From Thraustochytrium sp. TN22 (taxonomy: Eukaryota > Sar > Bigyra > Thraustochytrida > Thraustochytriidae): a DNA stretch of 27,015 bases. The position numbers and the translations under genes are program-made. Under the pieces are notes generated by a model. It had not been told where the DNA came from. It did not search any database and was given only the letters and a program-made list of their open reading frames with translations. Shown piece by piece: positions 568-26,438 of this stretch. The stretch is from assembly GCA_013306675.1 (NCBI GenBank), contig JABLUY010000095.1, positions 1 through 27,015 of the forward strand, written 5' to 3'. Position 1 is the first letter of the stretch; every line of letters begins with the position of its first letter.

Positions 568-762
568 ATGGAGCGCGGCGCGCGGCTGACGGCGGAAGAG
601 GCGGAGGCGGCGCTGGTGGCGCTGGCGGCGGTGCGTGCGCGCATCGACAAGCTGTCGCGCGCGCTGGAGTCGTCCGCGGTGACGCTGGCCAAGGCGCGCG
701 ACAAGCAAGAACAGGCGAGCGCCTCGGTCGTGCGGCCCGTCCAGGCGTGGTTCAAGGAGTAG
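568..762 (+). CDS. Small helical protein of 64 aa, unrecognised
   Basis: The ATG has a strong context (G at -3 of gacgATGg). The frame uses G or C in nearly every third codon position, like the real genes around it. The peptide starts MERGARLTAEEAEAAL and is predicted to be almost wholly alpha-helical, with an amphipathic, coiled-coil-like middle (residues about 8-52) and the end PVQAWFKE. There is no signal peptide or membrane segment. I do not recognise a family. The stop codon (760-762) lies two bases before the ATG of the chaperonin-like gene at 765. It is therefore either an upstream cistron in a two-gene transcript, an upstream ORF regulating that gene, or the N-terminal end of that gene cut off by a sequence error. 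The last is less likely because the downstream protein already has a normal-looking N-terminus. Confidence 0.5.
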   Translation: MERGARLTAEEAEAALVALAAVRARIDKLSRALESSAVTLAKARDKQEQASASVVRPVQAWFKE

Positions 763-764
763 AG

Positions 765-6632: not shown

Positions 6633-8129
6633 CTACAGCGAAGGCTCGCGCTGGAGTGGGGTCGAAGGCGCGACGACGGCGACAGCGCTGGACGCCAACT
6701 CGCTGGCGTCCTCGTGCTCGCTGAGAACATCATCCTCGTTCTCGCTAAGAACGTCGTCCTCGTTCTCGTCGTCCTCGTCGTCTTCATCGTCACCGGTGCC
6801 AAAGTCGGAGGTGGCGAAGGCGACTTCGACGGCCTGCGCGAGGCCGGGCGCAATGGAGCGGATGCGGTCGCCAGCGGCCTGCGCGAATTCGCCCGCGGCC
6901 AGCGCAAGGTCGAGGTTGCCGGAGGCGCCGTCCGGCGCGGAGCGCGCCACGGCCTGCGGTGCCCGGAGCACCTGGACGCGGTCGGCGAGCTCGACGGAAA
7001 CCTGGACGGGGCGCTCGACGAGGAGTGCCTCGCCGTCGACCTGGACGTAGGCTTGCGCGCAGTCCGGAAGAAAGTCTAACGAGTACTCGGAGTCCTGGGC
7101 CGTGCGCTTGATGCCAATCTTGGAGCCGGTGCCAATGTGCATGGCGACGCTGGCGGTGGACTGGATGGTGACGGCCTCGAGGCGGCCGTCGCCGACGAAC
7201 TGCGCGTCGAAGCGGCCGGTGCGCTTGGACGGGTTCCAGAGGTTGGCGCCCGCGCTGTAGGATGGGATGTTGAGGAAGGCGAGGATGCGGTCGCGGCCGC
7301 GGAAGCCGATGGAAGCGCCGCCCGCACCGTGCAGGTCGCGGAGCTGGCGGCGGAGTCGTGTGGGGCGCTCCACGAGCTGATGCGTGCCGCGCTGAACATA
7401 GACGAGCTTGTTGCCGACCTGAGAGGTGGTGCGCTGCTGCTCGAACTCGAAGACGATCTGCGCGTCAGCGCCGACCGAGAAGTAGTTGATCATGGTCTGC
7501 TCCATGACAAGGTCCTCGGCGGGCTGGTCGCCGCCAGCCTCGGCCTCCTCGATCTTGCCGCCGCGCACGCACAGGAAGCGGCCCTCGGGGGCGCGGCGGA
7601 TGCGCACGCGCCAGACGTCGAGCGCCGCCGGGCTGGCCTCGAGGACGGCGCGCATGCGCGCCTTGAGCGCAGACATGCGGGGCCCGACGAGCGGCGTGGG
7701 CGCAGCGCCTCCAAAGCCCATGGCGCGCGAGAAGTCGTTGCCGGTGCCAAAGGGCATGACGCCCAACGGCACGTGCGAGAGGCCGCGCGCCAGCAGCTCC
7801 GTCATGACCCACTTGACGGTGCCGTCGCCGCCGGCGGCCACCACGCGCAGGTTTGGCCGCTCGGCCGCGACCTCTCTGGCCAGCGCGTCCAGTCCCCTTT
7901 TGCGCGTCTCCGCGTTTTGCAGGTTGAAGAAGCACGCCCTGCACGGCCTCCGCTCCGCGTCCTCGAAGGCCACCTCGTTCGTGCCGAGCTGCAGCAGCGG
8001 TTTCGCCGCGTTGCCGCCTGACGCCCCGTTCACCAGCACGAAGACCTGCCCGTGCAGCCTCGCGCCGCTGCCCACGGACGCGCGCTCGCCGCCCTCGCCG
8101 CCCTCGGCGCGGCTCGGCCAGCACCCCAT
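6633..8129 (-). CDS. Diacylglycerol kinase, N-terminally acylated type
   Basis: A 498-residue lipid kinase that converts diacylglycerol to phosphatidic acid with ATP. The catalytic domain begins at VFVLVNGASGGN (29-40), carries the nucleotide motif GGDGTV (100-105) and PFGTGNDFSRAMGFGG (126-141). The accessory domain follows, with YFSVGADAQIVFEFE and LNIPSYSAGANLW, both DGK signatures. No C1 zinc fingers, PH, EF-hand or ankyrin repeats are present. Instead the chosen ATG gives MGCWPSR, which fits N-myristoylation at Gly2 with palmitoylation at Cys3, an alternative way to reach membranes. The C-terminus (about 455-480) is acidic with a repeated ENEDDVLS unit. The frame stays open upstream to 8708, but that part is poly-Gly and repeat-derived sequence without homology. 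Sphingosine or ceramide kinase is less likely given the accessory-domain motifs. Confidence 0.85.
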   Translation of the reverse strand: MGCWPSRAEGGEGGERASVGSGARLHGQVFVLVNGASGGNAAKPLLQLGTNEVAFEDAERRPCRACFFNLQNAETRKRGLDALAREVAAERPNLRVVAAGGDGTVKWVMTELLARGLSHVPLGVMPFGTGNDFSRAMGFGGAAPTPLVGPRMSALKARMRAVLEASPAALDVWRVRIRRAPEGRFLCVRGGKIEEAEAGGDQPAEDLVMEQTMINYFSVGADAQIVFEFEQQRTTSQVGNKLVYVQRGTHQLVERPTRLRRQLRDLHGAGGASIGFRGRDRILAFLNIPSYSAGANLWNPSKRTGRFDAQFVGDGRLEAVTIQSTASVAMHIGTGSKIGIKRTAQDSEYSLDFLPDCAQAYVQVDGEALLVERPVQVSVELADRVQVLRAPQAVARSAPDGASGNLDLALAAGEFAQAAGDRIRSIAPGLAQAVEVAFATSDFGTGDDEDDEDDENEDDVLSENEDDVLSEHEDASELASSAVAVVAPSTPLQREPSL

Positions 8130-8193
8130 GCTGGCCGGCGTGCTCGCGCGCGCCCTCTCCGCTCCTGCGCGCCCGCCCGCGCGTGCTCGCGCT

Positions 8194-8204
8194 CGCCGCC
8201 GCCG

Positions 8205-8235
<31 letters not shown>

Positions 8236-8236
8236 G
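8194..8236. repeat. CCG trinucleotide tract
   Basis: An almost uninterrupted run of GCC/CCG triplets lies about 65 bases upstream of the DGK start, on the leader side. It would be read as GGC repeats in the minus-strand transcript. Confidence 0.7.
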
Positions 8237-8665
8237 GGAAGTAGTAGTTGTCGTACTGCTCGTGGTCGCCGGGAGCGCGTGCGGCGCGTGCCCCACCGTG
8301 CCTGCCACTGGCGGGGCCACCTGGGTCGCGCACCGGCACGCCGGCAAGGGCATGCACATGCACGGCGTGCAGTGGCTCGGACTGCACGGGCGCTGGCTGC
8401 AGCAGAGCCGCACTGCAGCACTGCAGACACATGGCAGCGCAGGGCTGCAGCTCGGCCAAGGTCACCGGCGCCTCTGCTTCGATTCGTACGTCGGACTCGG
8501 ACCTGGTCTCGGCGACGGCGACGCGGGTGGTCGGGCGAGAAGAGAAGTCCGCCAGCGCTGGGCAGAAGTGGCGGAAGGCGAGGAGCGCGGGCTGGGAGGT
8601 GCGCAGCCAAGAGCCGTGCTTCGACTTGGAGTGCGGCCGCCGCGAGGAGACAAGTTGCATTGGCA

Positions 8666-8798
8666 AAGTCGCAGTGCCAAGTCGCATTGCAAAGGTGGTG
8701 TTTCGCATGTGCGCTCACGGGGCTGCAAGGCGAGTGCCGCCCGGAAGTCGCAGTGCCCAAGTCGCATTGCAAACGTGGTGTTTCGTATGTGCGCTCAC
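8666..8798. repeat. Direct duplication of a 53-54 bp unit
   Basis: The unit at 8666-8718 recurs at 8745-8798 with one inserted base and two substitutions, separated by 26 bases. Each unit itself holds two related words, AAGTCGCAGTGC and AAGTCGCATTGC, and ends GTGGTGTTTCG(C/T)ATGTGCGCTCAC, split here by the variable base. It is noncoding by position and lies upstream of the DGK gene. Confidence 0.85.
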
Positions 8799-12368: not shown

Positions 12369-12636
12369 CGCCCGCGCAGTCGCCGAGCCGCGCTGCGCGC
12401 GCGGGCGCCTGCGTGACTTCCGACGGTCGCCGCGTGGGCGCGTGCCTGCGCACGTGCATTCCGAGGCTCGCATCCCGGCGGCCGGCCTCGCTTTCCGGCA
12501 GGGCGCCCTGCGCGTCTCCTGCGCGGCGCGCGTCTGGAGGCGCCGTGCTCCGCGCGCGCCGCCCGCGCGCGCCCGCGCGCCCGGCGGCGGCGCGGGGCGG
12601 CGCGGGCTGCGCGCCCGGGCTGCCTGCCTCGTCTCA

Positions 12637-12665
12637 CATCCATCCATCCATCCATCCATCCATCC
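12637..12665. repeat. CATC tetranucleotide microsatellite
   Basis: Seven CATC copies lie about 140 bases upstream of the possible alternative start of the myotubularin gene. Confidence 0.9.
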
Positions 12666-12805
12666 CTGCGTCCAAACCCTGCAACGCAAGCCCCACGAGC
12701 GCGGCGCGCGCGGCGCGCGGCAGCCAGGCGGCGCGCGGCAGGCCGAGCCGAGCGCCGGGCGCCGAGCTGAGCGCCGCGCGCTTCGAGCTGGAGCTTCGCG
12801 CGGCC

Positions 12806-12900
12806 ATGATGGAGGCCATGGCGCTGGCGGAGCGCGCCCAGGGCGGCGACGCTGGCGGCAGCGGCGGCAGAGACGCAAAGGCGCGCGCGCGCGGCGCGGC

Positions 12901-12938
<38 letters not shown>

Positions 12939-13014
12939 GCGCGGCGGCGGCGGCGGCAGCGGCGGCGCGCGCGGGCCGGCGGCGGCGGCGGCGCGGGCGG
13001 CGGCGCGTCGCGCC
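12806..13014 (+). other. Possible N-terminal extension of the myotubularin in another frame
   Basis: ATG ATG at 12806 opens a frame beginning MMEAMALAERAQGGD that looks helical and GC3-rich. It then runs through a GCG tract (about 12895-13000) coding poly-Ala and is out of frame with the phosphatase by 209 bases (3n+2). One extra base or two fewer in the tract would fuse it to the ORF at 13015. Slippage or a sequencing indel in this tract is plausible; without it the frame is a leader ORF. Confidence 0.3.
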
Positions 13015-16000
13015 ATGGACTCGGACCCGTCCACGGGCGACTCGCTGGCGGGCGAGGAGGAGGCCGCGGAGGCGCGCGCGCGCGAGGGCGAGGGCGCGCG
13101 CGCGGGGCCCGAGGCAGCGCCCGCGCTCGTGGAGGCCGGCCCCGTGCTCGCCGCAGCCACGCTGGCCGGCGCAGGCGCAGGCGGAGAGGACGCGCGGCGG
13201 CCGGGGGGGCGTGACGAGGTGGACGCGGACGAGGAGGACTTGGAGGTGGAGATCGACGACGAGGAGGCGAGCGAGCCGGAACTGGCCGGCCCGGCGCGCG
13301 GCGGGGGCAGGCGCGGGCGGCCGGGGTTCAACCACGCGGCCCCCGGCAGCACCACCAGCAGCAACAGCAGCTTTCAGGACGATGTGGAGGAGGAGGAGGA
13401 AGAGGAGGAGGACGACGGCTCGGGCGCGCACGAACTAGGCATGGAGACCGGCGACGCGGACGCCGGGCGCGGAGAGTCCTCGTCGCGGCATTACCGCGCG
13501 GCGTCCTCGGAGCAGGTGCCCATGAAGAAGGTGGTGCGCTTCAGCACGGTCAAGCGCCACTGCACATCGCCGCCGCCCTCGCGATCCAACAGCCGCAACG
13601 GGACGCAAGGCGGCGACTCGAACGGAGGCGAGCAGCAGCAGCTGGGCGGGAGCGGTGCTGAGCTCGCGCACGCGGAGAGCGCGCGCGCGGCCCTAGCCGC
13701 CGTCCTGGCGATCGAGAGCGCAACGCCGAGCCTGCCCGAGCCGGACAGCCAGCAACAAGCGAGCCGGCCCCGCCAGGCCCCCGCCGTGCTCCACCTCACC
13801 ACGCACCTGACCGAGGATGAGCCGCCAGACGTTGCCCGCGGTGGCACCTACACCGGAAACAGCACCACGAGCACCACGAGCAGCACCGGCACCAGCAGCC
13901 ACATGCGCGGGCTCTCGTCGCAGGCGCCCGTGACAGGGATCGCCGCGGGGTCGGTGACGGTGGCCGCGGCGGCGATGGGCTCGGGGGCGGCGGCGGCGGC
14001 GGGCCGGCCCGCGCGCCCCAAGAGCTGGGCCGTCTCCAAGGTCGCCAGCAGGGGCTCCAGCAGGGGCACCAGCTTCCGGCCCTCGAGCAGCCTGCGGCGT
14101 CGGTTCTCGCGGCACACCACGGACGCGTACGCCGAGCCGCCGCGCGTCCCGGGCCGAGAGCCCGCCGTCACGAGGTCCACGGAATCCTACCCCGAACCGG
14201 AGTCGCCCAGCCGCGAGCGCTCATCGCACTTTGAACCAGCCCCGAACGGGCCGACCCGCTCGCAGTCATGGGTGCCCAAGTCGCTGGCGCCCGACTGCTA
14301 CGGATGCAAGACCAAGTTCTGGTGGTTCTCCCCCAATTGGACCAAGCACCACTGCCGCATCGACGGCAACGTCTACTGCACCGCGTGCACGCAGTATCGC
14401 ATGGAGCTCGAGCCAGGCGGCCCTCTCGTGCGCGTCTGCAACGCCTGCTACCAGAAATACTCCGTCCAAAACCCGCCGCCCAAGCCGAAAGCGAACGCGT
14501 CAAACGAGCCGGTGGAGCGCCCGGATTTTGTCCCCCTGCCCGGCGAGCTGGTTCTGGCGCGCTACCAGGACGTCTGGTTCGAAAACGAGCCCCACGGCGA
14601 GGTCTTCCTCACCAACTTCCAGTTGATCCTCTTTGAGCAGGCCGACGACGGATCGCGCGCCGTGGCGCACATCCCGCTCATGTCCATCGAGAAGATCGAG
14701 ATCGCGCTCTACAACGCGTGCGAGGCCGGCGTGCTCAACATCTTCTGCAAGGACTTTCGCTTCCTGCGCCTTGTCATCTTTGGCATGGTCGCCAAGCAGC
14801 GCTTTGTCGAGTTTCACAACCTCGAGAGCGAGCTCACGCGGCTCGCCTTCCCGCCCGCCGCCGCCGCCGCCGACAAGGCCGAGACCTTCGCCTGCGTCCG
14901 CGACCACGCCGCGCCCTCGCCGCCGCCCTCGCTCGAGGAGCTGGCCTCCTTCTCCGCCTGCTGCTGGGCGCGCCACGTCGACGACCGCGCCGAGCTCGAG
15001 CACCTCGTCAAGGACTGCCCCGGCTGGCGCATCTCCGAGGCCAATCAGTCCTTCGCGCTCTGCAAGACATACCCGCGGCTGCTCGCCGTGCCCGCGCGCG
15101 TCACGGACAACGAGCTCGAGCTCGTGGCGCGCTTCCGCACGCGCGGCCGCCTCCCCATCCTCTCCTGGATCGACCCGGACTCCAAGCGCGTCGTCTGCCG
15201 CTCCAGCCAGCCCATGGCCGGCGCCTTTGGCCGCCGCTCCATCGCCGACGAGAAGCTCGTCCGCGAGATTGCCCTGGCCGGCAAGTCCGGCCTCGTCATC
15301 GTCGACGCGCGGCCCATGGCCAACGCCAACGCGAACCGCCTAAAAAACGGCGGCGGCTACGAGGACGTCGCCTACTACAACAGCCACACCGGCCAGGCCC
15401 CCGTCTCGATCGAGTTCATGGACCTGCACAACACCCACGCCGTGCGCGCTAGCTTCTACAAACTCAAGCACCTCGTCGGCCTGCGCCTGCGCCAGAAGGA
15501 GTCCTTCGTGCGCGACGCGCCCGGCCGCTTCGCGCTCGCCCCACGCGCCAAGCCGCCCGCGCACCTCGGCCCCGGCGACGACGACGCCATCAACTTCGAG
15601 ATCAGCTGGCTCTCCAAGCTCGCGGACTCGCGCTGGCTCCAGCTCCTCGCCTACATCTTGCGCGCCGCCAACCGCGTCGTCCAGGTCATCAAGGACGCGC
15701 AAAAGTCCGTGCTCGTGCATTGCTCCGACGGCTGGGACCGCACCGCGCAGATCGTCTCCCTCGCCATGCTCTGCATGGACTCGCGCTACCGCACGCTGCG
15801 CGGCTTCATCGCGCTCGTCGAGAAGGAGTGGATCTCCGTCGGCCACGCCTTTCGCTCTCGCACCGGCACGGCTGACCCGCCTGGCCCCAACTCCACGCAG
15901 GACGTCATCGTGCCCAACGTCTCGCGCGTCGCGCCCGTCTTCTTGCAGTTTGTCGACTGCGTCTGGCAGCTCTCCCAGCAGTTCCCGACCGCCTTTGAGT

Positions 16001-16653
16001 TCAACTCCCGCTTCCTCGTCACCCTGCTCGATCGGGTCTACTCGGCGCGCTACGCCAACTTCATGGTCAACACGCGCAAGGAGTCCTTCGAGCACGAGCT
16101 CTACGCACGGGCCGATTGCGCATGGGCAGACATCCTCGAGGCTCCCGACACGTACCACAACGCCGCGTACACCCTCACCGACACCACACTGCGCCCGTCC
16201 TTTAGCACCAAGGCGCTGCAGCTGTGGCGCGACTATTACCTCCGCTTTGACGAGACCTGCCGCGATCCGGGCGCGCCAGCGCCCCCGGCACCGCGCCCGG
16301 CGTCGCCTTCGCGTCACGCGCACCCCGCACTCAGCGCCGAGCTTGCCCCGGACAATCACCCCGCCAGTGCCACGCACCCCTCCAGTGCCCACTCGTCCCA
16401 CGCAGCCGTCGTCAGTCTCTACGTTGATCCCGTGCCGGAAAGTGCCACCGACACGGAATCGCTCGGCCTGCGCTCCGATGCGGACTCTGAATGCAACCAC
16501 AACCACTCAGTGCCCTCCTCTCCGAAGCACGAGTTTCCGCCCATCTCCGCCAGCTCCGACGACCTCCGCCGCCGTGCCGCCCTGGTCAGCGACACGGAGT
16601 CTGACGCGGCCTCCGTCACCGAGATTTTGCGCGTCCCATCCAGCACGCTCTGA
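13015..16653 (+). CDS. FYVE-GRAM myotubularin-family phosphoinositide 3-phosphatase
   Basis: A 1,212-residue protein. Myotubularins remove the 3-phosphate from PI3P and PI(3,5)P2 on endosomal membranes. Domains in order: acidic, Ser-rich disordered N-terminus (1-415) with Glu/Asp runs; FYVE-type zinc finger (420-482) with C428, C431, C447, C455, C458, C475 and C478 and a KHHCR patch, but Asp450 where the fourth Cys is expected; PH-GRAM (about 506-610) starting VPLPGELVLARYQDVWF; phosphatase domain (about 655-1070) with the complete active-site loop HCSDGWDRT, catalytic Cys903 and Arg909 of C-X5-R. The enzyme should be active. The C-terminal 130 residues are Ser/Pro/Asp-rich. The ATG at 13015 is the first in frame; the apparent longer frame begins with GTG. 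A different upstream frame may hold more N-terminus. Animal MTMR3/MTMR4 carry FYVE at the C-terminus, so the order here differs. Confidence 0.93.
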   Translation: MDSDPSTGDSLAGEEEAAEARAREGEGARAGPEAAPALVEAGPVLAAATLAGAGAGGEDARRPGGRDEVDADEEDLEVEIDDEEASEPELAGPARGGGRRGRPGFNHAAPGSTTSSNSSFQDDVEEEEEEEEDDGSGAHELGMETGDADAGRGESSSRHYRAASSEQVPMKKVVRFSTVKRHCTSPPPSRSNSRNGTQGGDSNGGEQQQLGGSGAELAHAESARAALAAVLAIESATPSLPEPDSQQQASRPRQAPAVLHLTTHLTEDEPPDVARGGTYTGNSTTSTTSSTGTSSHMRGLSSQAPVTGIAAGSVTVAAAAMGSGAAAAAGRPARPKSWAVSKVASRGSSRGTSFRPSSSLRRRFSRHTTDAYAEPPRVPGREPAVTRSTESYPEPESPSRERSSHFEPAPNGPTRSQSWVPKSLAPDCYGCKTKFWWFSPNWTKHHCRIDGNVYCTACTQYRMELEPGGPLVRVCNACYQKYSVQNPPPKPKANASNEPVERPDFVPLPGELVLARYQDVWFENEPHGEVFLTNFQLILFEQADDGSRAVAHIPLMSIEKIEIALYNACEAGVLNIFCKDFRFLRLVIFGMVAKQRFVEFHNLESELTRLAFPPAAAAADKAETFACVRDHAAPSPPPSLEELASFSACCWARHVDDRAELEHLVKDCPGWRISEANQSFALCKTYPRLLAVPARVTDNELELVARFRTRGRLPILSWIDPDSKRVVCRSSQPMAGAFGRRSIADEKLVREIALAGKSGLVIVDARPMANANANRLKNGGGYEDVAYYNSHTGQAPVSIEFMDLHNTHAVRASFYKLKHLVGLRLRQKESFVRDAPGRFALAPRAKPPAHLGPGDDDAINFEISWLSKLADSRWLQLLAYILRAANRVVQVIKDAQKSVLVHCSDGWDRTAQIVSLAMLCMDSRYRTLRGFIALVEKEWISVGHAFRSRTGTADPPGPNSTQDVIVPNVSRVAPVFLQFVDCVWQLSQQFPTAFEFNSRFLVTLLDRVYSARYANFMVNTRKESFEHELYARADCAWADILEAPDTYHNAAYTLTDTTLRPSFSTKALQLWRDYYLRFDETCRDPGAPAPPAPRPASPSRHAHPALSAELAPDNHPASATHPSSAHSSHAAVVSLYVDPVPESATDTESLGLRSDADSECNHNHSVPSSPKHEFPPISASSDDLRRRAALVSDTESDAASVTEILRVPSSTL

Positions 16654-17539
16654 ATCGGTGCACGGCCGATGTATATTCTCATTCATGGGTACCCTCAACC
16701 CACCATCATAAATTAGCCCCATGTGTGCTATTTTCCCCTGCCGCAAAAGTCTTTGATCCCGACACGACCAAAGCCCTGCATAGCCAACACGGCATGTCCG
16801 ATCGCGCCAGCGCCTGACAGCCGCGTGCGATGCCATGGCCGCACTGTGGCACACGCGGCGTTTCCCAGCGTTTCCCTTCTTTCCTTTCCTGCGCATGAGC
16901 ACACAGCCGTGTGCGCCTCTCTCCGGGCCGGTCTCTCATCAGCCTGAGGGAGATTTCCGGCCGGACCACTTCTCTGCCTGCCTCTGCTTGCCTCCGCAGC
17001 GCTCGCACCGCTTCCCACTGCTTGCCGAGCAAGGCCCAGCAAGCGATGCTTGCTTGCCGTGATTGCCGCGCCGCGCCGCCGCGGCCGCAGTACGCACCGG
17101 GTTCTCCGGTTCTGAAGGTTCGACTCGGTTCTGCGCAGTTCTCCGGTTCTCCATTCACGCGCCGCAGGCTTCAAACTGCATGTGCCGGGATGCGGCGCGG
17201 GCTCGCGCGGCGCGGAGTCCATCCGTCCCAGCGCGCACGAGGCGCTGGGCCTCCGGGCCCCGGCAGCGGCCGCGCGCGCGGGCTTGGACGCCCGTGGCTC
17301 GGGCAGAGCCCGCTCGCAGGGAGGAGCGCCGAGAGCGAGACTCGGACCTTGGCCGCGCGGGCAGGAGCAGGAGAAGCCAGGCCGGCATGAAGCCCGCGCC
17401 GAGAGAAAGCCACCGCCAGCGGCGGGAGTCTCGCGCGAGGACGAGGCCGGCACGGCGGGAGCGCGATGCGAGGCGTGGTGGCAGGGCGCGCGACGAGGAG
17501 CACAGCCACGAGGGCCACGGCCAGCGCGCTCCGGCGAAA
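16654..17539. promoter_or_regulatory. Intergenic region between myotubularin and the LamG/coiled-coil gene
   Basis: The first 150 bases are less GC-rich (the myotubularin 3' end, with CATAAA near 16707). The middle is pyrimidine- and TGCCT-rich (about 16860-17020), with two small hairpins (17021-17054) and GGTTCT repeats (17100-17152). From 17180 the downstream gene's frame is already open, with in-frame ATGs at 17180 and 17387, but it encodes Arg-rich low-complexity sequence that I treat as leader. No separate gene is seen. Confidence 0.4.
17021..17054. repeat. Two adjacent small hairpins
   Basis: CTTGC-CGA-GCAAG (17021-17033) is followed four bases later by AGCAAGC-GAT-GCTTGCT (17038-17054), a perfect 7-base stem with a 3-base loop. 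The two share the same GCAAG/CTTGC arms, so they could also pair with each other. Function unknown. Confidence 0.5.
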
Positions 17540-19387
17540 ATGCAGCGTGGCGCGGACCGCCTCCCCAAGGAGCGCCGCGACAAGCTCGAACGCATCCTCG
17601 CGCGCGAAAACAGCAGGCCCAAGGTTTGCAAGCACGACCCAACCAAGGCCTACGTGCTCCTGGACGGCAGCTACCACGCGGTCGCGCGGGAGGACCGCCG
17701 CTTCCAGAGAGAAGAAAAGTGGGCAGATGATGATGAGATGGCGGAGGCGGCTGCACGCGCGGCAGCCGATGCGGAGGCAGAGGCAGCCCTCGCAGCTGCC
17801 GAAGCCGCTGCGGCCGCGCTACTTCCGCGCTCGCTGCTTCAGGAGACCACCTTCTTCAACGGGGCGACGCTGGTGGCTTGCGAGCACGAAAACGGAGACA
17901 CCCCGCGCGGGGGCGGGCCTCTTGCGGTGCCGCTGGAGGATATTTCGTCGCTCGCGCTGGACTTCTGGGTCCTTCCGGTGCTCGACCAAGGCACGGAGCG
18001 CCACCTGCGCGGGTCGCGCGTTGATGTGAGCTACCGCAACACGCTGCTCGCAGTCTCGGAGGAGCCGTCCACCTGGCGCTACGTGCTGCGCAAGGGCATG
18101 GCCGAGGCCGCGCCGCGGGTGGCGGGCTCTCTCGAGCACAGCGGCAGCCTGCGTCGCATCCAGATCACGGGCGAGTCCCGCAACTGCACGCCAACTGTAC
18201 TGATGGACGCCGCCACGGGCCAGTTGCGCGTGCACCTTTCTCGCGAGCGCATGCTCGAGGAGCGCTCTCCGGACGGTCTCCTGGACTTTGCGCGCGAGAC
18301 CGCGAGCTTGCAGCTCGCCTCGCAGAGGCGCCTCGCGCATGGCAAGTGGGCCCACGTCGCAGTCGTGGTCACCTTGACCCGAGCCCTGCTCTTTGTGGAC
18401 GGCGCCCTGGACGCCTGCCTCGAGCTCGAAGGCAGCGAGCGCGTCGCCTTCAATGCGCATCCGTACTTTGTCGGTAGCTGCCCCAAGCGCAATCCTGACA
18501 GTGGCGCTGTCACCGGGCGCGACGGCATGGTGGGCTTCCTGCACGAGGTGCGCGTGCACGTCAACCCAACCGACCTCGTCGCATTTGCGGATGCGGAGAC
18601 GATCGCGACGCTAACGCCGCCGTATCCAAGGTCGCCCAACGAATGGGGCACCGTACTGCCCGACGTAAACCAGAGCGCGACCACCTCGACTGGACTCGTG
18701 ATTGGCGGCTCGCAGGAGGACCGCCAGCGGAAGGCGCGAGAGCTGCAGCACCTGCAGCGCTCCTGGCTGGACCAGCAGATGAAGGAGAAACAGGCAGCCC
18801 GAGCTCGAGAGGAGATCGAGCGCGCGCGCCTCGCGCAGGACGTGGCCCAACGCACCGCGCAGTACCAACTTGACCAGCGACAGCGACGCAAGGACCAGGC
18901 CCTCGCCCTGGAGGGCGTGGCGCAGGAAATGCGCCTGCAAGCGCTCGATGCCGCCGAGCGCAAGCGCCACGAGCTGTGGCTCGAGCGCCAGCGCGACAAG
19001 GCGCTCAACACCGCGCTCGAGGACAAGGCCCGCCTTGACACGGCGCGCCGTCAGGTCTCCAACGAAGAGTATGCGCACGAGCTGCGCGCCGAGGCGGACG
19101 CGCGCCGCCTCGCGCGCCTCGAAGCGCGCGAGCGTGACCTCGACGTGGAGAAGATCAGGGTACAAGCTGCCGCCAGCGCGTATTCCGCCGAGCGCGCGCT
19201 CGAAGCGCAGCGCCATGCGCAGCGCCAAGAGCAGCTGCGTCGCGACCTTGCCGCGCAGATCGAGGAGAAGGCTCGCCTGCAGGCGTACTCTTCGATTGCG
19301 AACCAGAAGCTCATGACTGCAGACGAGCGTGCACTCAATGCGCGCATCCTCCGCTCGCGCGCCGCGCTTGGCCTCAGCTTGCCGTGA
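17540..19387 (+). CDS. LamG/concanavalin-like domain and coiled-coil protein
   Basis: A 615-residue protein that I do not assign to a named family. After a charged N-terminus (RLPKERRDKLERILAREN) there is an Ala/Glu-rich helix (65-95). Next is a beta-rich region (about 130-345) of LamG/concanavalin type: DFWVLPVLDQ, then HGKWAHVAVVV (267-277) and LLFVDGALD (283-291), the usual strand pair of LamG_3-like folds, ending GFLHEVRVH. No signal peptide is seen, so the domain is probably intracellular. Residues 392-600 form a long, highly charged coiled coil rich in Arg, Glu, Gln and Ala, resembling TPH-type axonemal proteins (MNS1 or CFAP53 style), with an end IEEKARLQAY and TADERALNARIL. A ciliary role is inference. 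Start: ATG at 17540, with A at -3; ATGs at 17387 and 17180 would add Arg-rich sequence, and the longest frame starts with TTG, not ATG. Confidence 0.72.
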   Translation: MQRGADRLPKERRDKLERILARENSRPKVCKHDPTKAYVLLDGSYHAVAREDRRFQREEKWADDDEMAEAAARAAADAEAEAALAAAEAAAAALLPRSLLQETTFFNGATLVACEHENGDTPRGGGPLAVPLEDISSLALDFWVLPVLDQGTERHLRGSRVDVSYRNTLLAVSEEPSTWRYVLRKGMAEAAPRVAGSLEHSGSLRRIQITGESRNCTPTVLMDAATGQLRVHLSRERMLEERSPDGLLDFARETASLQLASQRRLAHGKWAHVAVVVTLTRALLFVDGALDACLELEGSERVAFNAHPYFVGSCPKRNPDSGAVTGRDGMVGFLHEVRVHVNPTDLVAFADAETIATLTPPYPRSPNEWGTVLPDVNQSATTSTGLVIGGSQEDRQRKARELQHLQRSWLDQQMKEKQAARAREEIERARLAQDVAQRTAQYQLDQRQRRKDQALALEGVAQEMRLQALDAAERKRHELWLERQRDKALNTALEDKARLDTARRQVSNEEYAHELRAEADARRLARLEARERDLDVEKIRVQAAASAYSAERALEAQRHAQRQEQLRRDLAAQIEEKARLQAYSSIANQKLMTADERALNARILRSRAALGLSLP

Positions 19388-19496: not shown

Positions 19497-22400
19497 TCAC
19501 AAGCTCAGGCCATGTTTGAAAACAGCCCTCTGCAGGGGCAGCTGGAGGGCGACCTCGTCGCAGCGCTTGCTGGCCTCGCTCCGAATCCAGGACGGCCGGC
19601 CGTGCTCCGTAATGTTGAAAATCTTACGTGCCGCCAGCCAGTCCTTGTCCTTGGCCAGAGCCTCGGCAAGCCCTTCAAGGGACTCCCTGAGGTAGGTCGC
19701 AATATTGGCGGATTTGACCTCATCCTGCCATGCGGGCAAGCCGGCCGTGGCAAAGCGCATCAAATGGACAGAGATCCTCCGATACCACCGTAGAACGGCC
19801 TCGTCTTCAGGAACGCTCACCCCGTCGAGCGCATAAAGAGCCTCGACGGCGACCGCTTTCACCTCGGCAGATCCGTGCTTCGCCTCGGCGTACTGAAGGA
19901 CGACGTGCACGAAGTTCGCAATGCCGTTGGCCTGCACGCCAAGCGGACGGAGAGCACAGTAAAAACGCACCGCGTCCAGACACGCCTGAAAGAAGCGGCT
20001 CTCGCTGTCGTCGTCACTTCCGCAGGTGCGTCGGCACATCTTCTGGAGAATCTCAGTCAGCTCTCGCATTGCCAATGAGCTGGTACTACCGGAGAGCAGG
20101 TCAAAGCAGCTGCGGTACGTATCCCATGCGTATTGAGGAAGCTCAGCACCTCGGTACGCATCACCGAGTGCTTCGAGGCTAGACACGCGAACCAGAAGCT
20201 GGCTCCAGCTTCGCTCGCGCTCCACCAGCTCCCGCATAAGCTCAAGCTGCCGCTCCGCTGTTTCAGTCACCTCGGACGCATCCGCCAGTCGCTTCTGCAG
20301 CTCCTGACATCTTGCGGCTTCGAAGCGTGACCCAGACCTCAAAAGGCGCAGGGCGCGCTCGAGGAGCGCCGGGGCCTCGCTCTCTTCCACCTCGTCCGCG
20401 AGCCGGGCGAGGAAGGACACGAGAATGATGTGGTCGCGGCCGTAAAACGTCTCCAGCACCTCTAGGGCCTCACGCAGAGCATCCTCATCATCTGGGGCCC
20501 CATGCGCCAGACCAATGTCGCGATGCGCATCCCCGTACATCGCCTGCCACGCGGCGAGGCTTTCAGCCCGCAGGCGCGCGCAAAGAGCCTCGTTGCTGTC
20601 AGGCTCGTCAGACTCGGTATCTTGGAGGTACTCCGACAGCTTGAGCGCAAAGGCGAAGGCGGCCTCTGGCATTGCTCGAGGATCGCGCAACTCGCGACAC
20701 CACGCAAGTGACTCCTCGCAAAGCTCGGCGGCGCGTTCCGTGTTCTTCGCTTTCACGTAGGCGGCTGCGCACGACGAGACGAAGTGGACCACCTCCCACG
20801 GACACGGCCCGCCGAGGGCCTTGCATGCATCCGTGTACTCGCGAATGATTGCACTGGCATCGTCAAAGGTAGCGGTATCGTGCCCAGCCTCCTCCTTCCC
20901 CTTGTCCTCTGCGGCCTCCAGCAGGGACTCAACGAGAAGCACGGCAACATGAGAGGTGCATCCGTGCAGAGGGCCGAGGAGCTCCATGCGGGCGCGCCAG
21001 AGCGCCTCGAAGCAAATCACGTCGTCCTCCTTTGAGAGATCGTTGGGGATGGAGCTTGTCATAATAGCGCGTTGTGCGACCGGGGATCCGTCGGCCACGT
21101 AAATCTCCATCGCTTGCCGAAAGGCCAGCATCTTGCTGGTGCTGTTCATCGTGAACGCCCTGGACATCTCCATCAACGCCCGCGCGGTCATGAGGTCGCG
21201 CGTGCCGAAACGCTCCCGGCAGCGCCGCACTGCGTCGCGCAGCGCGGGACCTGCCGATTCCTCGAGGCCGAGGCTGTCTAAGATGGAGGCCAACAGGATG
21301 CGCGTCCCGGCTTCCTCACGTGGGTGCGAGCCAAGAGCCGTGTATATGGTCAGCGCCTCCTCGTACGCATTGGCGGCCTGCGCAGGCCGTTCTCGGCGCT
21401 CCTCGATGTCTCCAAGGAGAAATAGGGCGCGCGCCAAGCTCACGTGGTTCGCTGTCTCGCCGTGCACGCCTCGCAAAAGGTCCAGCGCACGAGACGCCTC
21501 CTCAAAAGCAAGGTCCTCTGAGGTCTGCTCATCCGCTTGGACGCGAACACCCGCCAAGCGCACGAGAAGCCGGGCGACTTCCTCGGGGTCAGCGGACTCC
21601 GAGTCTTCTGCCCGAGCCAGCATATCCGCCGCAAAACGCTCCTGGGCGTCTCCCAGGTACTGGATGGCACCGAATCGTATGGAGGCAACGTCTCTGCGCG
21701 GGCCGAGTATCGCGTCGTCCATCCGATCGAAGAAGGCCTCGTCAAAGAAGTTGCGCGACTGAGCATAGGAGATGTCTCCGATGAACTCGATCAGGTCGCA
21801 GCTCGCCAGGCACTCTGGCAGACTGTGCAGGAAGCTTTCCGCCTGCCCGGGCGCAAATGCCAGCTCTAGGCGGCGGCCCGCTTGCTGCGCAGCGAGCGCA
21901 GCCCACTGAGAGTAGTGCCGCTCGAGCACCGCGGGGTACAGCCAGTCGTCGATCACCAGGGCAAAGCGCGCAAACGCTTCGATCATCTCCCGCACCCCGT
22001 CCGTCTGTGCCTGGTCCTTGTCTGCCCAGTTCATGGACGCTGGCAGGCTCTCATTGTCCGTCTCCGGGAAGACGGCCTCGCTCATACAGAAGACGTCAAG
22101 CCAGACGGCCTCCTCATCGCCCAGAAGGAGAGTGTCCAGCGCCCCGACCAAGTCGGCGAACCTCGTCTGCCACCCGTGCGTCACGTACACGCCCGCGCAC
22201 TCCGCGCCGACGAGGTCTGGCGGCAGCGTGTGCACGTAGACCTCCTCGCCCGCCGCGCGCAATGCAGGCAGAACGACGTGCTGAGCCACGTCCAGCGTCG
22301 TCCAGGCGCCTCGTGTCTTCGGCGTGGCATCCCGCCCGTCGTCCCGGAAGACGACCTCCGCGGGGCCCGGGCTGCCCTCGACGCGGCCCACGAGCGTGCC

Positions 22401-22676
22401 GTCCTCGTCACCTCTGCGCAGGACCCGCAGCGAGGCGCCGCGCAGCGCGCCTCTGGCCAAGTCGCGCTGCGCCTCGTACAGCTGCACGCCAGGCGCCAGG
22501 TCGCCGCTCTCCACGCCGCGCAGGAGGTCTCGGACGTGCTGCAGCTTCACGCCGCGCCTGTCCACCACGACGGCGCCGCTCGCCGCCGCCGCCGCCGCCG
22601 CCGTGTCGGCCTCCGCGCCGCTCCGGCCGCCGCGCCGCGACGACAGCTTGCGCACGGACCGCCGCAGCCGCTCCAT
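19497..22676 (-). CDS. TIR-like domain plus TPR-like solenoid protein, copy A
   Basis: A 1,059-residue protein. Basic N-terminus MERLRRSVRKLSSRRGG, then a poly-Ala linker. An unnamed module (about 40-150) holds GVKLQHVRDLLRGVESGDLA, APGVQLYEAQ and LDVAQHVVLPALRAA. The TIR-like domain (about 160-275) has strand AGVYVTHGWQ, helix TRFADLVGAL, strand AVWLDVFCMSE, strand ARFALVIDDW and helix YSQWAALAAQ. Where related TIR-like proteins carry a WCLWE-type Glu, this has WAALA, so NAD cleavage is unlikely. From about 330 to the end it is alpha-helical, with clear TPR-like pairs at about 410-447 (ALFLLGDIEERRERPAQAAN, AYEEALTIYTALG) and degenerate helical repeats after. No NB-ARC or other NTPase is seen between TIR and repeats. 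The start is supported by the paralogue's identical opening. It is head-to-tail with copy B, with 417 bases between. Function unknown; a signalling scaffold or sensor is a guess. Confidence 0.75.
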   Translation of the reverse strand: MERLRRSVRKLSSRRGGRSGAEADTAAAAAAASGAVVVDRRGVKLQHVRDLLRGVESGDLAPGVQLYEAQRDLARGALRGASLRVLRRGDEDGTLVGRVEGSPGPAEVVFRDDGRDATPKTRGAWTTLDVAQHVVLPALRAAGEEVYVHTLPPDLVGAECAGVYVTHGWQTRFADLVGALDTLLLGDEEAVWLDVFCMSEAVFPETDNESLPASMNWADKDQAQTDGVREMIEAFARFALVIDDWLYPAVLERHYSQWAALAAQQAGRRLELAFAPGQAESFLHSLPECLASCDLIEFIGDISYAQSRNFFDEAFFDRMDDAILGPRRDVASIRFGAIQYLGDAQERFAADMLARAEDSESADPEEVARLLVRLAGVRVQADEQTSEDLAFEEASRALDLLRGVHGETANHVSLARALFLLGDIEERRERPAQAANAYEEALTIYTALGSHPREEAGTRILLASILDSLGLEESAGPALRDAVRRCRERFGTRDLMTARALMEMSRAFTMNSTSKMLAFRQAMEIYVADGSPVAQRAIMTSSIPNDLSKEDDVICFEALWRARMELLGPLHGCTSHVAVLLVESLLEAAEDKGKEEAGHDTATFDDASAIIREYTDACKALGGPCPWEVVHFVSSCAAAYVKAKNTERAAELCEESLAWCRELRDPRAMPEAAFAFALKLSEYLQDTESDEPDSNEALCARLRAESLAAWQAMYGDAHRDIGLAHGAPDDEDALREALEVLETFYGRDHIILVSFLARLADEVEESEAPALLERALRLLRSGSRFEAARCQELQKRLADASEVTETAERQLELMRELVERERSWSQLLVRVSSLEALGDAYRGAELPQYAWDTYRSCFDLLSGSTSSLAMRELTEILQKMCRRTCGSDDDSESRFFQACLDAVRFYCALRPLGVQANGIANFVHVVLQYAEAKHGSAEVKAVAVEALYALDGVSVPEDEAVLRWYRRISVHLMRFATAGLPAWQDEVKSANIATYLRESLEGLAEALAKDKDWLAARKIFNITEHGRPSWIRSEASKRCDEVALQLPLQRAVFKHGLSL

Positions 22677-23093
22677 GGCGCTCCCCGCGCGGGGCGCGAC
22701 GCGGCGCTGGGGTGGACGGCCAGATGGCTCCGGAGGTCGGGCGTGTGCGCTTGCGCTCGCTCATCTGATTCTGCTGCCTCGTTGGTTGCGGTACTACTGC
22801 ATGTGCATGGGTTGCGCAGACCGCGGCGCGCGTTGCGTCGCCGGGATCGACGGTGGCGAGCCGCGGGAAGAAGACTCGGCGGGCTTCTGGCAGCGGAGAG
22901 GGCCGGCCGCGGTGGCCACCCAGATCAAGGAGCCGGAACTTGCAGTGGAACGAAAAGGAGAACGTCGCTTTCTGCGTTTTACGGGTTTTACGGAGTTTTA
23001 CGGGGTGAGACGGCGTGAGACGGCCGAGCGAGGTACGCGCGATGCATGGCATGCGCGAGTCGCGACATCGACTCGGACATCACAAGGGTCAGG
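22677..23093. promoter_or_regulatory. Spacer between the tandem paralogues
   Basis: This serves as promoter/leader of copy A and 3' flank of copy B. It contains a 19-base word also found upstream of copy B (22811-22829) and short tandem copies of TTTTACGG and GTGAGACGG (about 22977-23025). No gene is seen. Confidence 0.45.
22811..22829 (-). promoter_or_regulatory. 19-bp word shared by both paralogue upstream regions
   Basis: GTTGCGCAGACCGCGGCGC occurs here, 135-153 bases before the copy A start codon, and again exactly at 26439-26457 before copy B. It is either a conserved control element or leftover homology from the duplication. Confidence 0.5.
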
Positions 23094-26000
23094 TCAGTGC
23101 AGGTTGAGGAGCCTGGCCCCGTGCACGTAGTGGGCGAGAGCGTCGTCGCAGCGTCTGCTGGTGTCGGTGCGACCCCAGCTGTTGAGCTCGGTCATGTTGA
23201 GGAGGCGCCGCGCAGGAATCCAGTCCTTCTCCGTGGCGAGAAGCTGGGCGATGGTCTCAAATGTGCGTCGAACGGTGAGGGGAAAGCCTTCCGGGGACTC
23301 GAGCACGCTCTCGTAACCGCGTTGGGGGGAGCGCAACATCATAATGGCGAGTCTGCGGTAGCAGCACAGCACCGGGTTCTCGCTGCGCGCAAGCTCGACG
23401 TCGCCATCTAGCGCGCGGAGGGCTTCAATCGCGATCGCGTTGACTTGTTCGGACCCGTACACCTCCCCCACGTACTTGAGCACAACGTGCACAAAGTGCG
23501 CCATGGTGGCTGTGTAGACACCCTGCGGCTTGAGCGAGCAGTAGAAGCGCACAGCGTCCATGCTGGCCTGCAGGAGCGTGTCTGCGCCTTCTCGCCCTGC
23601 AGATGTGGCTTGGAGGTCATGCAGACTCTCGAGCGCCCGTGCTCGCTGGTTGATGAGATCGGCCTCGGTGCGCTCGGCGAGAGAATCGAAGCAGATGCGA
23701 AAAGTGACTGCTGCGCTCTCGGCGCTACCGATCGATTGCTGCGCGTCGCCCAGCGCAATCATACGGCCGACGCCATCCTCGAGAGACCCCCAGCGACCAT
23801 TAAGCTCCACGATGCGCTCTCGAACCGCGACCGGTTGCTGCGTCCGGTCACTGCCGCCCCTGCCATAGGCTCCCACAAGGAGGTCCAGAATTTCGAAGCA
23901 TCGAGTTGCCTCGAAGCGCGACTCGAGACTGGACAGGCTGAGAGCGCGCTCCAGAAGCACCGGCTCTTCGCTTCCCCCTGCCTTTTCGGCGAGGCTCACG
24001 AGCACGTTGATGAGGATCACATGGCCTGGTCCGTAGCAGCCTTCGAGCAATTGAAGCCCACCTCGCAGGTGCTTCTCCGTGTTCATGTAAGCGTACGCGA
24101 GACCCACGTCACGGTGCCCATTGCCAAAGATGGTCTGCCACGCGTTGAGGCACTGCTCCTGCATGCGCTCGCGCAGAGTCTTTTCCGCGTCATCGCCTCC
24201 TCCGTCGAGCTTGTACGCAAGGAGAGAGGCGACTTCCGCGAGGACCCTTGGATCGCGAAGCTCGCGACTTCGCGCAATCGACTCGTCGCATAGTTCCTTG
24301 ACGATCTCGAAAGGGACCGCGTGAAACCCTGCGTACGCCGAAAGGGCATCCACCGCGGCATAGCTGCACGGCCCTCCAGCGCTGTCACAGAGCTCAACAT
24401 ACTCGCGCAAAAAGAGCCCGCTTTCGCGCTTTTCGACGGGCGCATCCGCATCAATGTCCGAGGCGTCGCGCTCTCTGTTGTGCAGCAGTCGGGCCACTAC
24501 AACGGCGGCGTTGCAGGTCGCCCGGTGCAGCGGGCCTAGGAGCTCCAGTCGAGCCTCCCATATCAGCTTCTGGCAGTGAATCTCAGAGTCTGGGCTGAGG
24601 TCGTACGGACTTGCAATGTATGCAACAGCACGCCGAGCATCGCACGAGCCGTCTGCTCTGTATGCGTCCAGGACGCGCTCAAAGGCGGCGACCCTGACAT
24701 CTTCCGGGAGGGCGGAGGCATTGGCAAGGCTGTTCCCTGCCCGCGCGGTGAGAAGATCGTATGGGCCCAAGAGCAAAGCGCTCCGCTGCAGGGCGTCACG
24801 GAGCAATGCTGGGCCGCCGCTCAGGTTCAGATAGTCGAGTAGGCCGCCATGAATAAATCGTGTGATGATCTCCTCGCGCGGGTGCGTTCCGAGCGCCGTA
24901 TACATGGCCAGCGCCTCGGAGTACGCCTGACAGCCCTGAATGTAGCAGCGGCGGCGCTCCTGCAAGTCTCCCAAGGCGAAGAGCGCGCGCGCCACGCTCA
25001 CGTGGTTTGTCTGCTCGCCGAGCTCGCCCCGGAGAACCTCCAGAGCGCGGGTGGCCGAGGCGAAGGCCTTGTCATTCGATCTCCTATCATCGGCTTGGGC
25101 CATGAGCGAGGCGGACCGCACGAGCAGAGTCGCAAACTCCTCTGGGTCCACCTCCGCGGTGTCCTCCTCCATCTGCGCGATGGCGTTGCCCACCACTCGC
25201 TCGAGGGCATCCGCGATGTACACCACGGCGCGCGTGATGATGGTGCTGGTGCCGGAGCGCGGCTGTATCAGGTCAAAGCTCACGCGTGGGACAAAGAGGT
25301 CGACGTGCACGTTGCGCGAGCTAGGGTAGAAGGCATCGCCCCATTGCTCGGTCAGATCGTAGCGCACGAGGCACTCGGGCGGACTGTGCAGAAACGCGTC
25401 CGCCTGGCCTGGCGCAAAGAGGAGCTCTGGACACCGCTCGAGATGCTGCGCGGCGAGAAGCGCCCACAGCGCCCAGCGGTCCTCAAGCACGCTCGGCTTG
25501 GCCCAGTCTTCGAGAACGATGGCGAAGCGCGGAAACGCCGCAATCAGCTCGTGCATCCCGTCTGTCTGCGCGTAGTCCAAGGCAGCCCAGTCCATGGATG
25601 CCGGCAGGCGCTCGTGGTCTGTTTCTGGAAAGACGGCTTCGCTCGTGCAGAAGACATCGAGCCAGACGCCCTCGTCGTCGTCCAGCTCGAGTGTCTCCAG
25701 CGCAGCCACGAGATCAGCGAACCTCGTCTGCCATGCGTGCGTCACGAAGACACCCGTGCACTCGGCGCCCACTTGAGCCGCCGGCAGCGCTCGCACGTAG
25801 ACGTCCTCGTTCGCGGCGCGCAGCGCGGGCAGCACGACGTGGATGGCCACGTCGAGCGTGGACCACGCCTCTCGCGCCTTGGGCGTGGCGTCCCGCGGGT
25901 CGTCTCGGAACACCACCTCCAGCGGCCCGCCCTCGACGCGGCCCACGAGCGTGCCTTCCTCCTCCCCGCTGCCCACCACTTGCACCGACGCGCCGCGTGG

Positions 26001-26243
26001 CGCGCCCCTGGCCAGCTGCCTCTGCGCCTCGTACAGCCTCACGCCGGGCGCCAGCTCCCCGCTCTGCACGCCCTGCAGGACTTCGCGTACGTGCTGGACC
26101 TTGACGCCGCGCTTCTCCACGGCCACCGCGCCGCTCGCCGTCGCCGCGCCCGTCGCGCTCGCGCTCTCGGCGCTGCGCTCGCCGCGCTCGCCGCGCTCGC
26201 GTCGCGACGACAGCCTGCGCAGCGAGCGCCGCAGCCGCTCCAT
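23094..26243 (-). CDS. TIR-like domain plus TPR-like solenoid protein, copy B
   Basis: A 1,049-residue paralogue of the gene at 19497-22676. It opens MERLRRSLRRLSSRRERG, matching copy A, which fixes the start at 26243; the longer frame to 26396 begins with GTG. The unnamed module (43-150) and TIR-like domain (about 164-280; TGVFVTHAWQ, GVWLDVFCTSEAVFPETD, RFAIVLEDW) are roughly two-thirds identical to copy A by eye. The Glu of TIR NADases is replaced here too (ALWALLAAQ). The helical region with TPR-like pairs (HVSVARALFALGDLQERRR, AYSEALAMYTALG) is more diverged, and the last third the most. Both end in a similar DAVRFYC / HFVHVVLKY block, WIPARRLLN/WLAARKIFN and RCD(D/E) near the C-terminus. 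Tandem duplication followed by divergence of the solenoid suggests that the helical part sets specificity, as in other TIR-repeat proteins; this is inference. Confidence 0.75.
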   Translation of the reverse strand: MERLRRSLRRLSSRRERGERGERSAESASATGAATASGAVAVEKRGVKVQHVREVLQGVQSGELAPGVRLYEAQRQLARGAPRGASVQVVGSGEEEGTLVGRVEGGPLEVVFRDDPRDATPKAREAWSTLDVAIHVVLPALRAANEDVYVRALPAAQVGAECTGVFVTHAWQTRFADLVAALETLELDDDEGVWLDVFCTSEAVFPETDHERLPASMDWAALDYAQTDGMHELIAAFPRFAIVLEDWAKPSVLEDRWALWALLAAQHLERCPELLFAPGQADAFLHSPPECLVRYDLTEQWGDAFYPSSRNVHVDLFVPRVSFDLIQPRSGTSTIITRAVVYIADALERVVGNAIAQMEEDTAEVDPEEFATLLVRSASLMAQADDRRSNDKAFASATRALEVLRGELGEQTNHVSVARALFALGDLQERRRCYIQGCQAYSEALAMYTALGTHPREEIITRFIHGGLLDYLNLSGGPALLRDALQRSALLLGPYDLLTARAGNSLANASALPEDVRVAAFERVLDAYRADGSCDARRAVAYIASPYDLSPDSEIHCQKLIWEARLELLGPLHRATCNAAVVVARLLHNRERDASDIDADAPVEKRESGLFLREYVELCDSAGGPCSYAAVDALSAYAGFHAVPFEIVKELCDESIARSRELRDPRVLAEVASLLAYKLDGGGDDAEKTLRERMQEQCLNAWQTIFGNGHRDVGLAYAYMNTEKHLRGGLQLLEGCYGPGHVILINVLVSLAEKAGGSEEPVLLERALSLSSLESRFEATRCFEILDLLVGAYGRGGSDRTQQPVAVRERIVELNGRWGSLEDGVGRMIALGDAQQSIGSAESAAVTFRICFDSLAERTEADLINQRARALESLHDLQATSAGREGADTLLQASMDAVRFYCSLKPQGVYTATMAHFVHVVLKYVGEVYGSEQVNAIAIEALRALDGDVELARSENPVLCCYRRLAIMMLRSPQRGYESVLESPEGFPLTVRRTFETIAQLLATEKDWIPARRLLNMTELNSWGRTDTSRRCDDALAHYVHGARLLNLH

Positions 26244-26438
26244 GGCGGCTCGCGCGCGGCCTGCGCCCTGCGGCGGCGCTCGCGGCGGCGGCCGGGGGCT
26301 CTCCGGGTCCTCCAGGGCTGCGCACCGGCCCTGCCCGAGCCCGTGGCGCGCGTCGCCGCGGGTGGCAACGGGGTCTGCCTTGGAGGCGCGCGCCACGAGC
26401 CCGAGGCTGCGCGTGCCGCAGGCTAGGCACGTGCGCGC

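Follow-up and report, generated by a model that had tools for sequence, protein, structure and literature searches.

A tandem array of HET/TIR-like and TPR genes without a conserved family glutamate in Thraustochytrium sp. TN22

HET and TIR domains are reported to be remotely related (PMC10197012, PMC12881547). Fungal HET domains are reported to share the functionally important glutamate of TIR domains (PMC9153377) and to be sufficient to trigger cell death (PMC10197012). The glutamate E75 is conserved in more than 70% of TIR domains and NADase activity was found to depend critically on it (PMC7075850). Among the described proteins of this kind, the actinobacterial group 6 TIR proteins combine a TIR domain with C-terminal TPRs in more than 700 residues, and no nucleoside triphosphatase (NTPase) is mentioned for them (PMC7075850). 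Here, we describe two genes, p1 and p2, of the protist Thraustochytrium sp. TN22 (GCA_013306675.1), which encode an N-terminal head with a HET/TIR-like region followed by a long TPR-type tail. They lie in a window of 27,015 bases, the first of the 122,408-base contig JABLUY010000095.1 (C448), in a genome of 37,891,866 bases and 453 contigs. The GC content of the window is 61-81% per kilobase.

We tentatively read p1 and p2 as non-catalytic members of a fast-turning family of HET/TIR-like and TPR receptors, whose other members would be catalytic through an invariant glutamate and whose array would descend from one ancestor lacking it. Taken whole, this reading seems to us nearly, if not quite, an even call.

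The two genes, their array and their family

p1 and p2 are intact, intronless and arranged head-to-tail on the minus strand. Over residues 1-1042 of p1 the two proteins share 49% identity (E 8.5e-277), a likeness not due to chance. Searching the genome with p1 returned at least 44 rows; six of them fall on the minus strand of C448, within 19.5-42 kilobases. These six genes form a tandem array that continues beyond the window, which contains the first two. Five array frames are complete, each with more than 1040 codons and no stop. Most of the tail of the third gene (L009) is lost to a run of N, suggesting that the assembly did not resolve a near-identical copy, and this tail cannot be judged. 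The features of p1 and p2 are listed below; the p2 frame in the list of open reading frames begins at a GTG at 26396, and the coordinates given here count from its ATG.

19497..22676, minus strand: p1, array gene 1, single open frame of 1059 residues, stop codon included
22578..22676, minus strand: p1 residues 1-33, basic N-terminus (MERLRRS...), from the alignment of 42 heads; similar in kind in many family copies dispersed outside the array
22233..22577, minus strand: p1 residues 34-148, unnamed N-module, with family residues kept (e.g., K..R..W...D)
21852..22232, minus strand: p1 residues 149-275, HET/TIR-like region (VTHGWQ, VWLDVFC, QWAALAAQQ), from alignment and profile comparison
21900..21905, minus strand: p1 W258-A259, alanine at the family glutamate position, from the head alignment
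19500..21776, minus strand: p1 residues 301-1059, diverged tail, with further TPR-type units at 700-719 and 993-1027, from profile comparison
21102..21587, minus strand: p1 residues 364-525, run of four TPR-type units, of which three score higher than any of 40 shuffled controls
22677..23093, no strand: intergenic gap of 417 bases between p1 and p2, from the open reading frame coordinates
23094..26243, minus strand: p2, array gene 2, single open frame of 1049 residues from the ATG
25794..26132, minus strand: p2 N-module, from the head alignment
25413..25793, minus strand: p2 HET/TIR-like region (VTHAWQ, VWLDVFC, LWALLAAQ), from alignment
25461..25463, minus strand: p2 alanine codon at the family glutamate position, from the head alignment
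23097..25277, minus strand: p2 tail after the head, from alignment and profile comparison

The family is very large and receptor-like. With the 286-residue head of L024, which lies outside the array, as query, we obtained 137 rows in the genome, which were merged by hand into 111 places, fragments included and one short fragment row excluded. In-frame stops were found in 12 of the 137 rows, none of them within the array. Most dispersed frames (29 of 36) span 545-752 residues from the likely methionine; the others range from 279 to 1002 residues, some being broken or ended by a contig edge. The common layout is a basic N-terminus, an N-module of about 115 residues, a HET/TIR-like region of about 127 residues, a linker and a TPR tail. 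Scans based on short conserved peptides, which would miss distant relatives, confirmed no relative outside this genome among one genome per species for 84,980 prokaryote species, nor in viral contigs; tblastn found none in phages and plasmids. Among the titles listed by a literature search without subscription papers and preprints, none dealt with such a family.

An earlier note on this DNA, made from the sequence alone, had described p1 and p2 as tandem paralogues sharing an N-terminal module, a TIR-like domain and a TPR solenoid of about 700 residues, with no NTPase domain. The tandem arrangement and the shared module of about 115 residues are borne out in both genes, and the search for further copies that the note proposed yielded the six-gene array and about 111 family places. 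The absence of an NTPase domain also stands: none was reported in p1 or p2 by Pfam (to E 1), PADLOC or NCBIfam, and neither NACHT nor NB-ARC was found in them at E up to 1 or among the matches listed for six relatives.

The solenoid stands in kind, if not over its full length. With HMMER and Pfam, p1 has one TPR family above the cut-off (34.8 bits vs 30.1) and p2 taken alone has none. The four dispersed members scanned all have strong TPR matches after the head, and the two in which units were counted have five and six clear ones of about 42 residues. We built a profile of the TPR unit from 140 repeats of dispersed members and compared it with the tail alignment of five array genes. Five units (p1 residues 411-448, 452-496, 492-525, 700-719 and 993-1027) scored 24-38, the best of 40 column shuffles reaching 17.9. 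They cover about a fifth of the tail, most of which has no detectable repeat. A TPR-type solenoid is likely in the array tails, as judged from these profiles.

Of the 12 conserved positions of the N-module, all six array genes retain nine and share the loss of one. Profile comparison revealed no resemblance to TIR. The matches of its profile to THR6 (8ga6_A, E 7.6e-5, 25.7 bits), which we take to be a designed protein, and to a de novo TIM barrel (7osv_A, E 0.0024) were judged chance matches to designed proteins.

The array heads and the lost glutamate

To compare heads across the family we aligned 62 of them: 42 from the array (six) and from dispersed copies (36, after dropping the broken L027), and 20 chosen to include more divergent rows. 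The glutamate of a W-C-x-W-E motif, directly after an invariant tryptophan, is present in all 56 non-array heads and in none of the six array heads, where it is replaced by alanine (five) or glycine (one). The array rows are gapless from this tryptophan to the following PG motif, and none of the six has an aspartate or glutamate within the seven residues after the lost position. The array also lost a cysteine and a glutamine; the glutamate, the cysteine and the glutamine are conserved in 56, 55 and 51 of the 56 non-array heads, respectively. In the HET/TIR-like region, 27 positions are at least 90% conserved in non-array heads. All six array genes retain ten of these (W160, D162, W223, G127, F138, L141 and four more) and lack six others (R134, Q168, L171, A196, C221 and E224). 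The linker has four conserved positions, none kept by all six and two lost by all six. Residues typical of the putative fold are retained in the array heads. In a tree of 61 heads (L029 excluded) the array forms one clade (support 100/99) whose stem measures 1.08 changes per column; the bootstrap was not yet stable, and several further rows are long too. Since the array is a single clade, the glutamate was most simply lost once. Given the loss of all three residues, the array heads are probably not ordinary catalytic signalling heads.

The array heads might still be enzymes, with changed chemistry or another acidic residue, if H-(A/G)-W and, in p1 and p2, S-E at the first two motifs marked a re-tuned active site. 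Their His-Ala/Gly-Trp is like the SHAWG-type motif of the ordinary TIR_2 regions of this genome, and a profile of the six array heads scored 23.2 against TIR in an alignment of the first two strands, the best of 60 decoys reaching 19.6. Yet the cysteine and glutamine went with the glutamate, and the lack of a nearby acidic residue holds for all six heads, which makes this explanation improbable.

The second half of the head reads FVSQAR.C.FADLV / VFVWLDLFCANQ / ALIFFDRWDEPAPLQRAWCVWE / VVYAPG, and its rhythm of strands and helices is, in our reading, like that of TIR domains. HET domains carry motifs of the W-(I/L)-D-x-x-C-x-x-Q and R-x-W-x-x-x-E types. The W-L-D-x-F-C-x-x-Q of the head resembles the former, which is also visible as FVWIDFSCIDQ in L049, a HET-domain and MORN-repeat protein of the same genome (L049:1273-2721, G000:C110). 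Both motif types occur in L049, which is the sole protein of the genome with a reported HET match and exceeds the Pfam cut-off (25.5 bits vs 22.5). Pfam has no family for the head and gave no TIR or HET match in p1 or p2. When 52 heads, p1 and p2 included, were scanned singly, none matched TIR and HET appeared below threshold in one of 32 (E 0.093) and in none of the other 20. NCBIfam and PADLOC gave no convincing match to the head. The motif scan of prokaryote genome contigs with L049 as query confirmed no relative either.

Profile comparison, like the motifs, places this half of the head close to HET domains. We scored head profiles against L049, using column-shuffled alignments as decoys. 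An alignment of 32 rows (A4; 28 dispersed and four array) scored 32.3 (decoy maximum 20.8, n=150), the 56 non-array heads 34.6 (maximum 21.4, n=60), and the six array heads alone 29.4 (maximum 17.8, n=60). The TIR comparison set consisted of 16 TIR_2 regions of the same genome. Both A4 and a short alignment of the 56 heads set the W-C-x-W-E glutamate on the TIR glutamate, which lies between strands C and D, and both of these alignments are weak. Part of the A4 signal for TIR may stem from the array rows, which carry the H-A-W motif, because the array-only profile scores 23.2. As the HET link exceeds all decoys and the TIR link is lost with the 56 heads, we call the region HET/TIR-like and treat its fold as unproven. 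We infer from these profiles that the head may have a HET/TIR fold, which in TIR domains is a five-stranded parallel sheet. The TIR-like domain of the earlier note is accordingly better named this way: it has HET-like similarity, no Pfam TIR match and a direct TIR link that is marginal with A4 and at chance level with the 56 heads.

These results bear on a different account, in which the head is a protein-interaction module in all members, the proteins are TPR scaffolds or adaptors, the W-C-x-W-E glutamate is structural and the array is an ordinary diverged subfamily. TPR proteins are commonly scaffolds, and this account fits the lack of convincing matches to the head in Pfam, NCBIfam, PADLOC and the PDB and the failure of the TIR profile link with 56 heads. 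It does not fit as well with the HET link above all decoys, nor with a glutamate present in 56 of 56 diverse heads beside a cysteine and a tryptophan, which looks like an active site; the 114 TIR_2 rows over the cut-off show that TIR proteins exist in this genome. We regard it as rather unlikely.

Several observations weigh against non-catalytic array members in a catalytic HET/TIR-like family. Neither of the two majority-consensus heads matches a HET or TIR model, and head profiles gave nothing convincing against solved structures (best E 1.3 and 0.39). The HET link through L049 spans mainly the first two strands. The score of A4 against TIR, with its four array rows included, is marginal (24.5; decoy maximum 23.8, n=150), and that of the 56 non-array heads is not above chance (15.2; maximum 19.9, n=60). 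The heads read cover 56 of about 105 non-array places, about half, and the glutamate loss counts as one event on a long branch, not six. Finally, the frequency of E75 need not track reported activity, being above 90% in TLR1/2/6/10-type domains and below 10% in TIRAP and MyD88 (PMC7075850), so that the glutamate alone does not settle catalysis.

If p1 and p2 are indeed non-catalytic members of a catalytic family, the TPR tail would be the sensor, and the N-module and head the assembly and signalling part. Glutamate-bearing heads would be putative enzymes, probably NAD-consuming like many TIR domains, triggered by sensing through the tail. The array proteins would work without catalysis, as partners, dampers or sensors, and could assemble with catalytic members through the N-module and the head residues they keep. 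Both the catalysis of other members and this hetero-assembly are proposed from sequence. By analogy, an immune or cell-death role might be expected because fungal HET domains trigger cell death.

Divergence of heads and tails

The earlier note took the well-kept head and the diverged solenoid as the pattern of a conserved signalling head with a variable recognition part. The pattern is real and the divergence is not uniform: the first 300 columns of the alignment of p1 and p2 are 58-83% identical per 50 columns, and the remainder 18-60%. We estimated the ratio of nonsynonymous to synonymous rates (dN/dS) by a counting method with bootstrap intervals. It is 0.34 (0.25-0.47) in the head (dN 0.22, dS 0.63) and 0.38 (0.29-0.48) in the tail (dN 0.58, dS 1.54). 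Both genes are thus under constraint, and a special constraint on the head is not supported, since the ratios are alike and it is dS that differs (Fisher 4.5e-9; the tail dS is near saturation and alignment-dependent). Hence, the contrast need not reflect selection. The array heads also lack the glutamate, cysteine and glutamine.

Heads are more alike than tails at silent sites too, also in array genes 4 and 5, where dS is 0.015 in the head, 0.098 at residues 341-650 and 0.143 from residue 651 (Fisher, head vs rest, 1.6e-7). From about 400 bases upstream of the start codon to the end of the head, this pair has a nucleotide identity of 0.89-1.0, against 0.81-0.84 over the final seven 100-base windows. 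In the head dS and dN are lowered to the same extent, which points to copying between genes, and gene conversion would be the simpler account of the contrast; the regional mutation rate may be another.

The same pair raises the question of whether the array is decaying, as a dead branch that stayed open by chance and was homogenised by conversion. Between genes 4 and 5, dN/dS in the head, where changes are few, is 0.87 (0.29-3.88); it is 0.47 (0.31-0.74) at residues 341-840 and 1.28 (0.85-2.04) beyond residue 840, so that the last 235 codons are either relaxed or diversifying. Decay does occur in the family, as the 12 rows with in-frame stops show, none of them in the array. However, all five complete array frames are open over their full length, and the upper bounds of dN/dS between p1 and p2 remain below 0.5 in head and tail. 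These values make decay a poor explanation, with a small chance of being right. Positive selection in the tails is not supported: the replacement excess in genes 4 and 5, in windows chosen by eye, was not significant (binomial p 0.065, 0.27 and 0.30).

Exchange is seen between dispersed copies. L019 (C406) and L028 (C9) form a sharp mosaic: over the first seven 100-base windows their coding frames are 50-72% identical, over the following six 96-100%. The switch, from about 70% identity to about 97%, falls around base 700, within the HET/TIR-like region. This indicates recombination between dispersed copies, at least for this pair. A wider proposal is that some 110 gene places encode NTPase-free HET/TIR-like and TPR receptors that shuffle heads and tails by recombination, with a homogenised, enzyme-dead array regulating or sensing the live members. 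Built on these sequence comparisons, it is a doubtful but conceivable extension.

Genome context and known systems

The genome is rich in TIR_2 matches: of the 128 rows reported, 114 exceed the cut-off, many of these within open frames that span 500-2000 residues. TIR has 17 rows at E up to 1, HET one and NB-ARC two at E up to 0.01. A six-frame search, in which introns were not handled, gave no chlorophyll-binding match at E up to 0.001, which speaks against a photosynthetic alga; the gene families found beside p1 and p2 suggest a eukaryote. On another contig, and so not in the window, a series of four TIR_2 matches (G000:C160:1247-4627) has an exact spacing of 1043 bases (1247, 2290, 3333, 4376) and one in-frame TGA in each match; it is either a TIR gene amplified in tandem not long ago or a unit repeated in the assembly.

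The other genes of the window are:

17063-19387, plus strand: long charged protein, with a laminin-G-type stretch that stays below threshold; convergent with p1
12442-16653, plus strand: myotubularin-like phosphatase with a FYVE finger
6633-8708, minus strand: diacylglycerol kinase
3322-5352, minus strand: ion-channel protein
747-2291, plus strand: diverged TCP-1/cpn60-like protein, its match not reaching the Pfam cut-off

Should the heads be HET/TIR-type enzymes, this genome would hold a receptor repertoire of the size seen in innate immunity, working without an NTPase switch beside its TIR_2 proteins. The natural split between glutamate-bearing and glutamate-less members makes both the catalysis of HET-like heads and the use of dead paralogues testable. 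A 2023 review asks that the enzymatic activity of HET be established (PMC10197012), and a 2025 review mentions NAD+ hydrolase activity for this kind of module, yet its table has ND for HET/TIR proteins (PMC12881547).

The family is like the fungal HET-domain proteins (PF06985; HET-E, TOL, PIN-C) in its HET-type motifs, its size and variability, and its remote relationship to TIR. Unlike them, its heads fail the Pfam HET model, and it has an extra N-module and a TPR tail, with no nucleotide-binding domain found. For some known families the parallel would be one of function; FAM118 is an example of an inactive-partner arrangement. FAM118A/B, which are NAD-processing sirtuins (PMC12700824), are a possible parallel as partners of a catalytic relative, and in the paired receptors RRS1-RPS4 a partner works with or through a catalytic relative (PMC9153377); both are functional analogies only. 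In architecture, the array proteins share with the actinobacterial group 6 TIR proteins a large size, an N-terminal TIR-type head and multiple C-terminal TPRs (PMC7075850), and differ in the lack of a TIR match and in the N-module, the motif scan of prokaryotes having confirmed no relative. With the plant TNP (TIR-NBARC-TPR) and fungal HET-NBD-TPR receptors (PMC9153377) they share the combination of a TIR or HET head and a TPR tail, whereas those receptors have between the two a central nucleotide-binding domain, not found in p1 and p2.

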